Virus record (IMG/VR): IMGVR_UViG_3300046616_000022
Coordinates: 1 to 46,845 of that record
Length of the DNA stretch: 46,845 nucleotides
From: a virus
Direction: 5' to 3' (one strand)
Shown: positions 5,551-45,986 of the stretch, piece after piece
Position numbering within the stretch: the first letter of the stretch is position 1
Layout of the letters: the number at the start of each line of letters is the position of its first letter
Translations under genes and position numbers: made by a program
The notes under the pieces: model-generated
The model's database searches: none
What the model saw: only the letters and a program-made list of their open reading frames with translations
Told to the model about the DNA's origin: nothing

Positions 5551-7072
5551 AGTCAAGATCACTACCGGTAAGGCCCCTACCCTGCCCAAGGCTGCAAAGC
5601 CGACGGTAGGCGGGACTGTACCAAGCCCGGATACATTCCGGGAGACAGCAAAGGGTCGAGCATTCATCCTCACTGCTGCACAGAACAACACGAAGGTACA
5701 TACGAAACTCTGGAACAACCTTGTAGCGCTCGCTAAGAAGCGGAAAGCGCAGATCATGGTCAGCCGGATTACGTATAACAAGAATGGGTTCCAGAACGCC
5801 ACGAAGGATGCACTGTCCAGTGGTGATGAGGAGATGTGGTTCGATGAACGGGTGCTACCATACATCCAAGACTATCAAGTCAAACTTGCACCCGGTCTGG
5901 TTTTCGCAGCTGAGTTGGACATTCTTCCAACGGCTAAAGATCCGCTCAGTGGATTGGACAACTATACAGGCACCAACTCGATGGTTGTCCCGCATCCCAA
6001 GGTACACATGCGTTCGTACGCTGGACTCCTATCGGGTCAAGACCAACGATTTGGGTATACTACTGGAGCGTGTACGCTACGCAACTACGTCGATAGACGG
6101 GCCGGGCAGATCGCGAGCTATCACCACGTATACGGTGCTCTCTGGGTCGAGGTCGCCGAGGATGGAACATGGTTTTCTAGGCAGATCAATGCCGAGGACG
6201 ATGGGTCTTTCTTCGAACTTGATACGTTCGTCGCGAATGGCAAGTGTATGGACACTGGAAGTGATTGGGTCGCTAAACGATTCGCAGATACGACCGGCAG
6301 AGTTCTCAACCTTGGAGATGTTCACGCCGAGAAGATGGATGCAGCATCCTTTAAGACAGCAATGTCTATTGTATCAGAGCTTGACCTAACGCACGTCGTT
6401 ATTCATGACCTGCTCGACTTCGAAGCTCGTAACCATCACAATCTGAAAGACCCGTTCTTCATTGCTGACCAGCACTTCAACGGTATGAATACCGTAGAGG
6501 GCAACTTCCTGCACGCGGCTACAGTGCTTAGCGAGATTGAGCGAGTATCTAAGGGTGCGCTGATGGTGGTCGTACGTTCGAACCATGACCAAGCGTTTGA
6601 ACGCTGGCTGCGAGAGTTCGATGGTAAGGCGGACCCTGCTAACGCTAGGTTCTACCATTGGCACATGTTCCTTGCATACCAGCACATAGAGAACGGGCAG
6701 AAGTACGACGCCTTCTGGTCTGCACTGACAAATGCTGCCTGCAAGATGGGGTCTGATCCGCTCGGATGGGTAAACGTCAAGGAGGACGATAGCTATGTCA
6801 TTCACGGCATTGAGCTTGGCTTACACGGCCATCTCGGTCCAAACGGGTCTAGGGGTAGTCCAAAGGGATATCGCCAACTCGGACGTAAGCTTAATACGGG
6901 ACACACGCATAGCGCTGGAATCATTGACGGAGTATGGACTGCAGGCGTGCTTGCGTCCCTCAACATGGGCTATAATAAAGGCCCGTCATCTTGGTCCCAC
7001 AGCCACATTCTTACACACCCAAATGGCAAGCGACAGATGATCACTTGCAAGGGTGATCGCTGGAGAGCATAG
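5540..7072 (+). CDS. Calcineurin-like phosphoesterase, probable DNA-degrading enzyme
   Basis: The 510-residue protein carries metallophosphoesterase signatures in its second half: Leu-Gly-Asp-Val-His near residue 260, an Asp-rich segment near 295, Ser-Asn-His-Asp (a GNHD variant) near 350, Gly-Leu-His-Gly-His near 430, and Gly-His-Thr-His near 460. These bind two metal ions. The long N-terminal region and overall plan resemble the A1 protein of T5-like phages, which is needed for host DNA breakdown, so a nuclease role is likely but inferred. I prefer GTG 5540 to GTG 5534 because GGAG (5527-5530) is then nine bases away. It overlaps the helicase end by eleven bases. Confidence 0.75.
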   Translation: MANEVKITTGKAPTLPKAAKPTVGGTVPSPDTFRETAKGRAFILTAAQNNTKVHTKLWNNLVALAKKRKAQIMVSRITYNKNGFQNATKDALSSGDEEMWFDERVLPYIQDYQVKLAPGLVFAAELDILPTAKDPLSGLDNYTGTNSMVVPHPKVHMRSYAGLLSGQDQRFGYTTGACTLRNYVDRRAGQIASYHHVYGALWVEVAEDGTWFSRQINAEDDGSFFELDTFVANGKCMDTGSDWVAKRFADTTGRVLNLGDVHAEKMDAASFKTAMSIVSELDLTHVVIHDLLDFEARNHHNLKDPFFIADQHFNGMNTVEGNFLHAATVLSEIERVSKGALMVVVRSNHDQAFERWLREFDGKADPANARFYHWHMFLAYQHIENGQKYDAFWSALTNAACKMGSDPLGWVNVKEDDSYVIHGIELGLHGHLGPNGSRGSPKGYRQLGRKLNTGHTHSAGIIDGVWTAGVLASLNMGYNKGPSSWSHSHILTHPNGKRQMITCKGDRWRA

Positions 7073-12227: not shown

Positions 12228-13118
12228 ATGTCAGAGAACTTCAAAGACCTCATCAACCAAGCCAAGCAGACTGAGAACCAGTCAGAAGCACAGGCCGGTG
12301 GTAACTATGAGTATAAAGTACCGGATGCAGGACGGACAGTAGCACGATTCATTGAGTACATTGAGCTAGGTGATCATATTGGTCAATACCAAGGTAAGCC
12401 TAAGCCAACTGCTCCGCAGGTACGAGTTACCTTCGAACTACTCGGTAAGTCTCATATTACTGAGATTGATGTAGAGGGTGGTAAGAAGAAGGTAGCTAAC
12501 CGCATCTCGGTTAACATGCCTAAGAAGCAATCGGATAAGGCTAAGTTCTTCAAGCTGTTTAAGGCAATGGCAGCAGGCCGGACTGAGATTACTCATATGG
12601 CGGAGATGCTTACCGAAGCATTCATCGTTGATGTAGTTCATGCTACTGAGGGTGAAGGCGACAAGAAGAAGACGTACGCTAACATCTACACTGAAGATCA
12701 GGTATGGAAGGTCTTTGCACCTCGGCGCATTGATGATCTGGCTGGTACATCGGAAGATATCAGCGACAAGGTTCCTCAGCCGATTAGTTCACCGCGTATC
12801 TTCCTGTGGGGTAATCCCACGAAGCCGACTTGGGATAGCCTGTTTATCGACGGGTATAACGAGACGAAGAACACAGACGGTACAACCACGAAAGTGAGCA
12901 AGAATTGGCTGCAAGAGAAGATCATGTCGGCGACGAACTACGAAGGTTCGGCACTGCAGACCATGCAAGGCGGACTGGACAATCTGCCGACTTCCGGCGA
13001 CAGCACCTCCTCCGGGTCATCGAAGACGCAGACGGAATCCGAAGCAGGAAATGCAGGTGCGGGTACACAGACGTCTGTGACTGCCTCTGACGATCCGCTG
13101 GCTGACCTCGGTCTGTAA
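12228..13118 (+). CDS. Single-stranded DNA-binding protein
   Basis: The 296-residue protein starts at ATG 12228 behind AAGGATATC. Residues 25-180 form a beta-rich, Lys-rich domain of the OB type expected for a phiKMV-like SSB. Residues 240-285 are a flexible Ser/Thr/Gly-rich linker, and the last nine residues (Asp-Asp-Pro-Leu-Ala-Asp-Leu-Gly-Leu) are acidic, as in SSB tails that bind the polymerase and helicase. It should coat ssDNA at the fork and help recombination. It has its own promoter (P2), in keeping with a need for large amounts. The next gene starts in its stop codon. Confidence 0.75.
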   Translation: MSENFKDLINQAKQTENQSEAQAGGNYEYKVPDAGRTVARFIEYIELGDHIGQYQGKPKPTAPQVRVTFELLGKSHITEIDVEGGKKKVANRISVNMPKKQSDKAKFFKLFKAMAAGRTEITHMAEMLTEAFIVDVVHATEGEGDKKKTYANIYTEDQVWKVFAPRRIDDLAGTSEDISDKVPQPISSPRIFLWGNPTKPTWDSLFIDGYNETKNTDGTTTKVSKNWLQEKIMSATNYEGSALQTMQGGLDNLPTSGDSTSSGSSKTQTESEAGNAGAGTQTSVTASDDPLADLGL

Positions 13119-40486: not shown

Positions 40487-40588
40487 GTGGGCATGTCTAA
40501 TACCAACCGCGCGCAGATTTCCCCCATAGGCCCGGCTTACGCGCGTTCCTTCTAGTTTGTCCGGCTTTTGACCGGCTATGGATTGCTA

Positions 40589-44467: not shown

Positions 44468-45211
44468 ATGGCAAACGCAGCACTGGAACTGATATCGCTT
44501 GAAGACCTGCTTGCAGAGATTGCAAAGCGGGCTGGTGGAGTACCGAAGGCCGCTAAGCGCGCCGAGCAGAGCTTTAATTACAGCCACACGACCTATATTG
44601 ATGCGCTGCTCAAGCGCGGCTTCGTGTCTCTCAGTAGCGGCATGTATAGCTCGGTTCTACATCATCCGGATCATCCTGACCGCGTTGTCAAGGTAGGTAA
44701 GGGCGCGGATGAGTGGCACCGCTACGCTGCGTGGGCCATGACTATTGACAGCCCACATGCTGTTAAGGTGTACAGCCTTAAAGAACACAAGTCGTTCTTT
44801 GTGTGTGTCATGGAGCGGCTGGAAAACATTGGTATGTACAGCGGCGATACTACCGAGCTTGTTGACCATGTTCGTGGTTATATGGTGCGTAATAGCATGG
44901 TAACGCTGCGCGCCACGCCTACCGCTCTTTCTGAGGTAGGTACTCACGCAGTAAGTGCGTATGTTCTTGACAAGCATCCACAAGGGCGCTCTCTGTACGC
45001 CTTCCTCAAGCTGTTGCGCAAGAATAGCGTGCTTGACGACCTGCACGGCGGCAATTGGGGAACTCGTGCCGACGGGACTATTGTAGTGTTTGATCCGACG
45101 ACCTATGTAGGTGATCGAGTAAACACGAGAGTTACACAGCTTTACGGTACGGCTAAGCTGCGTATTAAAGACAAAACAAGCCGTACAAGCGCTGTCAAGT
45201 TGGCTGCGTAA
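44468..45211 (+). CDS. Protein kinase-like early protein
   Basis: The 247-residue protein has a degenerate Gly-loop strand (Ser-Leu-Ser-Ser-Gly-Met-Tyr-Ser-Ser-Val, 54-63), Val-Val-Lys75-Val as the likely ATP-binding Lys, and Asp190-Asp-Leu-His-Gly-Gly-Asn196-Trp-Gly followed by Val-Val-Phe-Asp209-Pro. These match the catalytic and metal-binding loops of protein or small-molecule kinases (Asp-x-His-x-x-Asn and Asp). T7 has an early kinase, gp0.7, that changes host RNA polymerase and RNase E; this one may play the same part but is shorter and not clearly related. The start is ATG 44468. Confidence 0.7.
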   Translation: MANAALELISLEDLLAEIAKRAGGVPKAAKRAEQSFNYSHTTYIDALLKRGFVSLSSGMYSSVLHHPDHPDRVVKVGKGADEWHRYAAWAMTIDSPHAVKVYSLKEHKSFFVCVMERLENIGMYSGDTTELVDHVRGYMVRNSMVTLRATPTALSEVGTHAVSAYVLDKHPQGRSLYAFLKLLRKNSVLDDLHGGNWGTRADGTIVVFDPTTYVGDRVNTRVTQLYGTAKLRIKDKTSRTSAVKLAA

Positions 45212-45580: not shown

Positions 45581-45605
45581 AGTATCAGCGTACTATAGCT
45601 GACCG

Positions 45606-45654
45606 GATAGCCACATGCTGCACCTAGGTATTGCCTGCAGCCGCTGTGGCTATC
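45606..45654 (+). other. Two-part hairpin before the tRNA-like element
   Basis: GATAGCCACA (45606-45615) pairs exactly with TGTGGCTATC (45645-45654); inside, GCTGCA (45617-45622) pairs with TGCAGC (45636-45641). No T-run follows. It may be an RNA processing site or part of a larger fold with the next element, which starts nine bases on. Confidence 0.6.
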
Positions 45655-45662
45655 TCTGTGAA

Positions 45663-45769
45663 CTATAGGCGTTCAAGTATAGCGGTATCCAATGTGATGC
45701 TTGCAAGCGAGGTGGTGGACGGTCTTTTCCGCACGGTTCGACTCCGTTACCGCTATACTTGAACTATAG
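45663..45769 (+). ncRNA. tRNA-like cloverleaf RNA with a 17-pair closing stem
   Basis: GTTCAAGTATAGCGGTA (45671-45687) is the exact reverse complement of 45748-45764; CTATA/TATAG extends it past a three-base bulge. Inside are a small stem (45699-45708), a five-pair arm GTGGA/TCCGC (45715-45732) and ACGG-TTCGACT-CCGT (45733-45747). The last has the loop sequence and closing pairs of a tRNA T-arm. The spacing between the inner ends of the closing stem (60 bases) is that of a tRNA. However, position 8 is not T, there is no D-loop GG, and the acceptor/T pairing is 8+4. So it is a tRNA-like or decayed tRNA element, not a standard tRNA. TGAACTATAG occurs at both borders (45659-45668, 45760-45769). 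Confidence 0.5.
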
Positions 45770-45797
45770 TCAGCAATGCCAATCATAGGAGCATATC

Positions 45798-45986
45798 ATG
45801 GCAATGCAACCTCGGAACTACTTCCTCAATCACTACGGTAACAAGCGCGGTACTACCGTGATGCATCGTATGCGTACTTGGTACAACAGCCAAGCACGGC
45901 TGGCGCAGCGTGAGGGGCGCACTGCAGACGGCAATCACTTTCAATCTATGGCAGATCGCATGACTGCCAATATCAACGGGGTATAA
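45798..45986 (+). CDS. Hypothetical early protein, 62 aa
   Basis: ATG 45798 lies behind TAGGAGC. The product is basic, with Asn, Arg, Met and His, and helical. No family is recognised. It begins 28 bases after the tRNA-like element and may share its transcript. Confidence 0.65.
   Translation: MAMQPRNYFLNHYGNKRGTTVMHRMRTWYNSQARLAQREGRTADGNHFQSMADRMTANINGV

Follow-up and report, generated by a model that had tools for sequence, protein, structure and literature searches.

A conserved early-region RNA with a tRNA-like T-arm in a Rhizobium phage, a putative decoy for tRNA enzymes

An early intergenic stretch of a Rhizobium phage genome encodes, on its + strand, a four-way-junction RNA with an over-long closing helix and a T-arm of frozen sequence, and the pairing of this RNA is maintained by compensatory changes in three members. 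The window, that is, the whole stretch of DNA analysed here (46,845 nucleotides; IMG/VR record IMGVR_UViG_3300046616_000022), is the genome of this phage, a member of the Autographiviridae. The preferred explanation, to which we assign a probability of about 0.45, is a phage-encoded structured noncoding RNA of a family without a match in Rfam that would be released by RNase III, would mimic the tRNA elbow, and would occupy a host factor; we infer both the release and the target. A putative decoy for tRNA enzymes is the leading guess at its function.

The nearest named relative of the window is the Rhizobium phage Palo, with an RNA polymerase that is 97.6% identical, followed by the Cuernavacavirus phages RHEph02, RHEph03, RHEph08, RHEph09, N37, I38, and TM33 at about 72%. 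An earlier reading of this DNA from its letters (hereafter the sequence-only reading) had placed the element in the early region, and this is supported by synteny with Palo, the annotated terminal repeat of which matches the window near position 40496. The same synteny places the element about 5 kb inside the left end of the genome, with the RNA polymerase gene 16 kb downstream. The intergenic stretch that hosts it, 45581-45797, precedes a gene of 62 aa, and the gene two upstream belongs to a PHROG whose annotation reads 'positively regulates RNaseIII'. The features of this region are as follows.

44468-45211, + strand: gene two upstream, phrog_15752 (E 2.9e-14), the PHROG of the T7 gp0.7-type protein kinase
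45604-45656, + strand: upstream hairpin GATAGCCACA...TGTGGCTATC, common to Palo and outside the insert (Palo alignment)
45659-45668, + strand: left copy of the 10-bp direct repeat TGAACTATAG, left indel end (alignment to the empty site in Palo)
45671-45687, + strand: 5' strand of the over-long closing helix, GTTCAAGTATAGCGGTA (inverted repeat I4; its inner part covaries)
45676-45759, + strand: conserved core of 84 nt, the basis of covariance models R1 and R2
45688-45719, + strand: first arm, with stem TCCA/TGGA, a 6x6 internal loop (AUGUGA/AGGUGG), and the inner hairpin UGCU-UGCA-AGCG
45720-45731, + strand: second arm CGG-UCUUUU-CCG, a short stem with a U-rich loop of 6 nt (3/3 pairs covary in the three members)
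45733-45747, + strand: T-arm ACGG-UUCGACU-CCGU (CGGUUCGACUCCG, invariant in all members)
45748-45764, + strand: 3' strand of the closing helix, TACCGCTATACTTGAAC (inverted repeat)
45760-45769, + strand: right copy of TGAACTATAG, the single copy in Palo (alignment to the empty site in Palo)
45798-45986, + strand: early gene downstream, 62 aa, phrog_20729, function not assigned

The minimum-energy fold is the four-way junction that the sequence-only reading had drawn, in which a closing stem surrounds the T-arm and two other arms. The perfect stem of 17 pairs was found as described, its strands being 100% complementary with 60 nt between them. The helix is also as over-long as had been claimed, with at least 17 pairs in every member: 17 in the window, about 23 with small interruptions in RHEph08, and about 21 with three mismatches in the metagenomic relative L012. 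The window holds one perfect 17-mer inverted repeat within 220 nt, while even 14-mers average 0.1 per Markov-shuffled genome; an inverted repeat of 17 pairs at such spacing is not expected to arise by chance. Folding of 45653-45779 gives -46.9 kcal/mol (z -4.2; 0/200 shuffles as good), and the 84-nt core folded alone gives z -2.1; both DNA strands of the element fold. The predicted T-arm was located at 45733-45747, where the canonical loop (TTCRANY) and the G53-C61 pair are both present. Two supposed absences had been worded too strongly. The dinucleotide UA (45686-45687) stands at position 8-9 in two of the three members, although it is paired in the window fold. Similarly, the D-loop GG is not simply missing, as the loop of the first arm keeps GGUGG in two of the three members and GGU in the third. 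In the two closest members, the sides of the internal loop of this arm read GUGA and AGGUGG.

The evidence that this RNA is under selection comes from its relatives. A search of relatives' records matched RHEph08, and the counterpart in RHEph08 and RHEph09 occupies the same intergenic site and gives a gapless alignment with the window over 84 columns; 9 of the 27 pairs are changed on both sides yet remain paired, against at most 1 in slid controls. The covariance model R1, built on the window and RHEph08/09, then detected a third member (33 bits, E 1.3e-6) in L012 (46.6 kb) at a different early intergenic site ('site B') flanked by homologs of the window genes 929-1423 and 1637-2146. Among these three distinct sequences, all from one clade of related phages, 95.9% of the pair cells hold standard pairs. 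Compensatory change on both sides affects 13 of 25 pairs (0/500 shuffles; slid controls at most 3), counts to be read with the L012 row aligned to the model of the other two members, so that its share leans towards structure. All four outer pairs of the first arm differ on both sides between members, and RNAalifold recovers the same cloverleaf from the three-row alignment with 15 covarying pairs. Folded alone, L012 forms the cloverleaf with a T-arm probability of 0.97, whereas the minimum-energy fold of RHEph08 differs (T-arm probability 0.00), and the case therefore rests on covariation. That the relatives keep the shape though most letters have changed argues for a real, selected RNA, and the suggestion of a new phage RNA is thereby strongly supported. 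A lack of conserved pairing in relatives, which the sequence-only reading had named as grounds for refutation, was checked for, and the opposite was observed. The T-arm CGGUUCGACUCCG is the sole stem with an unchanging sequence in all three members, the other stems being rewritten, which points to a sequence-specific partner that reads the T-arm. In the + strand sense, five cells in the pair table of the three members are G-U and A-C does not occur, which identifies the selected molecule as the + strand RNA.

Flanking direct repeats had also been reported, and the two copies of TGAACTATAG coincide with the exact ends of a 101-bp indel relative to Palo. Palo reads CTCTG-TGAACTATAG-TCAGC where the window reads CTCTG-TGAACTATAG-(91 bp)-TGAACTATAG-TCAGC, and, as judged from this alignment, the repeats bound a recent insertion or deletion of 101 bp. 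The stretch 45581-45797 minus the insert is 98.3% identical to Palo, from which it follows that the indel is recent, and the flanking genes are only 78-88% identical. This high identity beyond the insert in comparison with the neighbouring genes may reflect strong constraint or recent exchange. The element is absent from this site in Palo and at least five relatives. Its presence at the homologous site in RHEph08 and RHEph09 favours an ancestral element that Palo lost when the repeats recombined, whereas movement is favoured by the occurrence of a related RNA at a different place in L012. Two sister fragments from IMG/VR sample 3300047318 are identical to the window over the overlap; one stops 28 bases before the element, so the insert is without independent confirmation in that sample.

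Searches with the element sequence in phages, plasmids, and IMG/VR returned no copy beyond RHEph08/09, and a second copy was found neither in the window nor in the phage or plasmid collections or 101 Rhizobiaceae genomes. The sequence search of the genome collection first missed the L012 member, and its empty results are accordingly weak. Over 395 Rhizobiaceae genomes, R1 gave borderline, chance-level matches (best E 6.8e-4 per genome), of which those read resemble coding sequence and did not improve with R2. A looser pattern scan of IMG/VR yielded no full-length members. Several candidates were set aside: 44 IMG/VR matches to the 15-mer GTTCAAGTATAGCGG have no paired arm, 38 matches from a pattern scan of genome contigs are apparently due to chance (two are tRNA-Sec genes), and a match in a Stappia phage lies antisense within a coding gene. 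The covariance models of Rfam 15, at E up to 10, include no family that matches the element; a single weak match, unrelated to it, lies at another place in the locus.

In T7, long helices of the early transcripts are cleaved by RNase III, an enzyme on which gp0.7 acts. The tRNA elbow is recognised by many host factors. On the explanation that we prefer, the early polycistronic transcript would be cut by host RNase III within the long helix, which would separate the early mRNAs and release a short RNA of about 80-95 nt. The T-arm, together with the GG-containing loop of the first arm, is predicted to fold into a surface resembling the tRNA elbow. Through this surface the RNA may occupy a host factor that recognises elbows, such as RNase P, TruB/TrmA, the CCA enzyme, or a tRNA-directed defence nuclease, and the occupation could make it a decoy or give it a handle for processing or stability. 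Occupation of an elbow-binding factor by the T-arm is the most doubtful step of this mechanism. The long closing helix in every member and the nearby gene for a gp0.7-type kinase count in favour of the explanation, and the helix has the properties of an RNase III site, being intergenic, about two turns long (17-23 pairs), and part of a predicted polycistronic early transcript. Viral elbow mimics and elbow-binding factors have been reviewed (PMC4810234).

Long helices with other contents occur at site B and at the site ahead of the 62-aa gene (site A). At site B, the window has a further element of this kind, in an intergenic stretch (z -5.9) before the gene at 1637-2146.

1522-1609, + strand: second long-helix element, with a closing helix of 25 pairs and two inner hairpins, at the site of the T-arm RNA in L012

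It is immediately preceded by a smaller branched structure (1458-1522). RHEph02, RHEph03, and TM33 have a 24-pair helix with other content at site B. In Palo, I38, N37, and RHEph08/09, the closing helices are again long, with 14 to 26 consecutive pairs in those measured, and enclose a second structured RNA with the motif AGCGGCAACU and 12 covarying pairs; its copy in Palo (L063, 6862-7004) has no match in Rfam. The outer part of the site B closing helix is common to the window and Palo, but the contents are not. At site A, the Cuernavacavirus phages keep the outer stem around differing contents; the idea of three arms common to all site A structures failed, since L012 folds otherwise there. 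The distant relative L281 has, at 12831-12961 on the - strand (its gene strand), a tRNA-like RNA enclosed by a helix of 17 pairs. Its T-stem has 5 pairs (probability 0.89-0.99), it lies two genes ahead of the endolysin, as in the window, and ARAGORN was negative on this RNA. These comparisons suggest that cassette contents, namely the T-arm RNA, the AGCGGCAACU family, tRNA-like RNAs, and small hairpins, are swapped between close relatives. A broader reading, held tentatively because independent cases are few, is one of exchangeable early RNA cassettes with fixed long helices and swapped contents, the T-arm RNA being one of several trans-acting RNAs that RNase III would release. Such cassettes possibly represent an arms race of decoys against host defences centred on tRNA.

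Other structures were encountered in related genomes. Y1_20 (L259, 443-567) and RHEph15 (L277, 2244-2365) have helices of 23 and 22 pairs, respectively, around a structured stretch of 78-79 nt near the start of the record. Paso (L265, about 6257-6350) has a tRNA-like sequence, GGGACTGTAGC...GGTTCGAACCC...CCTCCC, which neither ARAGORN nor Rfam accepted. A 21-pair inverted repeat, GATTACCGATAGGATCGCTGC, is conserved across the Cuernavacavirus genomes examined (L242, L245, L248, L251, and L254, at about 39.2-42.9 kb) in a stretch scored as coding.

The strongest rival explanation regards the long helix as a processing site and the remainder as having no trans role. The element would then be a cis-acting stem-loop that processes or stabilises mRNA, where RNase III would cut early messages apart as it does in T7, with its content a filler or an aid to folding. 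This is possible though doubtful: the retention of the closing helix at site B under changing contents, the other long-helix structures at site A in relatives, and the gp0.7-like kinase gene nearby are all consistent with it, but the content is constrained, with the T-arm sequence frozen and all other arms kept by compensation, and the identical kind of content recurs at a different site in L012. Considerably less probable is a cis regulatory RNA, e.g., a leader for translational control of the 62-aa gene or for the sensing of a tRNA or a protein. The element does lie directly upstream of this conserved gene in two lineages; however, the gene that follows it in L012 is an unrelated one, the 62-aa gene also occurs in Palo, I38, and others that lack the element, and a terminator-like fold was not found at the element.

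Movement as DNA, by a small mobile element or cassette with TGAACTATAG as its target duplication, is unlikely. The precise empty site in Palo, the near-identical flank with its recent indel, and the occurrence of the same RNA at differing sites in different phages speak for it, and a 10-bp repeat with one copy in Palo is what a target duplication of the MITE type would leave, although a loss in Palo would look identical. MITE-type multiple copies are absent from the window, the phage and plasmid collections, and the 101 Rhizobiaceae genomes, and there are no terminal inverted repeats at the element ends, where the inverted repeat overlaps the right direct repeat rather than ending at it. In RHEph08 the element occupies the homologous site without such a repeat, which makes ancestral presence followed by a loss in Palo through repeat recombination as likely. 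The proposal of a decayed tRNA is rejected because the pairing is kept by compensation, nothing similar occurs in the 101 host-family (Rhizobiaceae) genomes, and ARAGORN and Rfam (to E 10) found no tRNA in the window or RHEph08/09, nor did ARAGORN in L012. Descent from a tRNA gene, whether decayed or captured, or a role as an attP site is thus very improbable, even with a canonical T-arm and a length of about that of a tRNA; structure under selection, seen in the covariation, refutes it. RHEph15 provides a case of the latter kind in a similarly long helix: at 5899-5997, a host tRNA-Gly is represented by its 3' half (identity in hosts mostly 92-94% across 48 nt), which lies antisense to the phage genes, right after the integrase gene and inside a 19-pair helix. 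This piece was rejected as a family member and is likely an attP adjoining the integrase. No tyrosine integrase (PF00589) was detected in the window or Palo, whereas RHEph15 was positive, and the element is consequently not an attP. A signal at the DNA level (cruciform, origin, packaging, or recombination site) has the perfect inverted repeat and the folding of both strands in its favour and is still the least credible account, since a DNA hairpin or the - strand would see mismatches at the five G-U cells.

Early noncoding RNAs of DNA phages are little known. If the preferred explanation is true, a conserved early mimic of the tRNA elbow would indicate that there is a host factor which the phage needs to engage or blind. 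RHEph08 and RHEph09 are culturable, and Palo and RHEph02 are natural relatives free of the element.

Among known systems, type II tRNA (RF00005) resembles the element in the T-arm with its canonical loop UUCGACU closed by G-C, in three arms set in a multibranch loop, and in a short hairpin just ahead of the T-arm that is comparable to a variable arm. The element differs in that its closing helix has 17 to about 23 pairs in place of a 7-pair acceptor stem and its first arm is about 32 nt long with an internal loop. An anticodon arm (5 pairs and a 7-nt loop) is lacking, as the second arm consists of 3 pairs with a loop of 6 nt and the first terminates in a loop of 4 nt; a 3' CCA is not encoded in the element, and ARAGORN and Rfam do not recognise it. 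Viral tRNA-like structures such as that of TYMV (PMC4810234) have in common with the element that a viral RNA uses a T-loop mimic while the rest of its topology diverges. Structures of the TYMV type sit at the 3' end of RNA-virus genomes, whereas the element, which has no Rfam match, belongs to the early region of a phage with double-stranded DNA. The small stable RNAs C and D of T4, set beside the element here by description only, are likewise phage-encoded small RNAs without an assigned function. They are made from a tRNA cluster. The early RNase III sites of T7 are similar in being long helices set between the early genes of a phage of the Autographiviridae with a gp0.7-type kinase gene; they are irregular hairpins without a conserved T-arm or four-way junction, both of which the element has.
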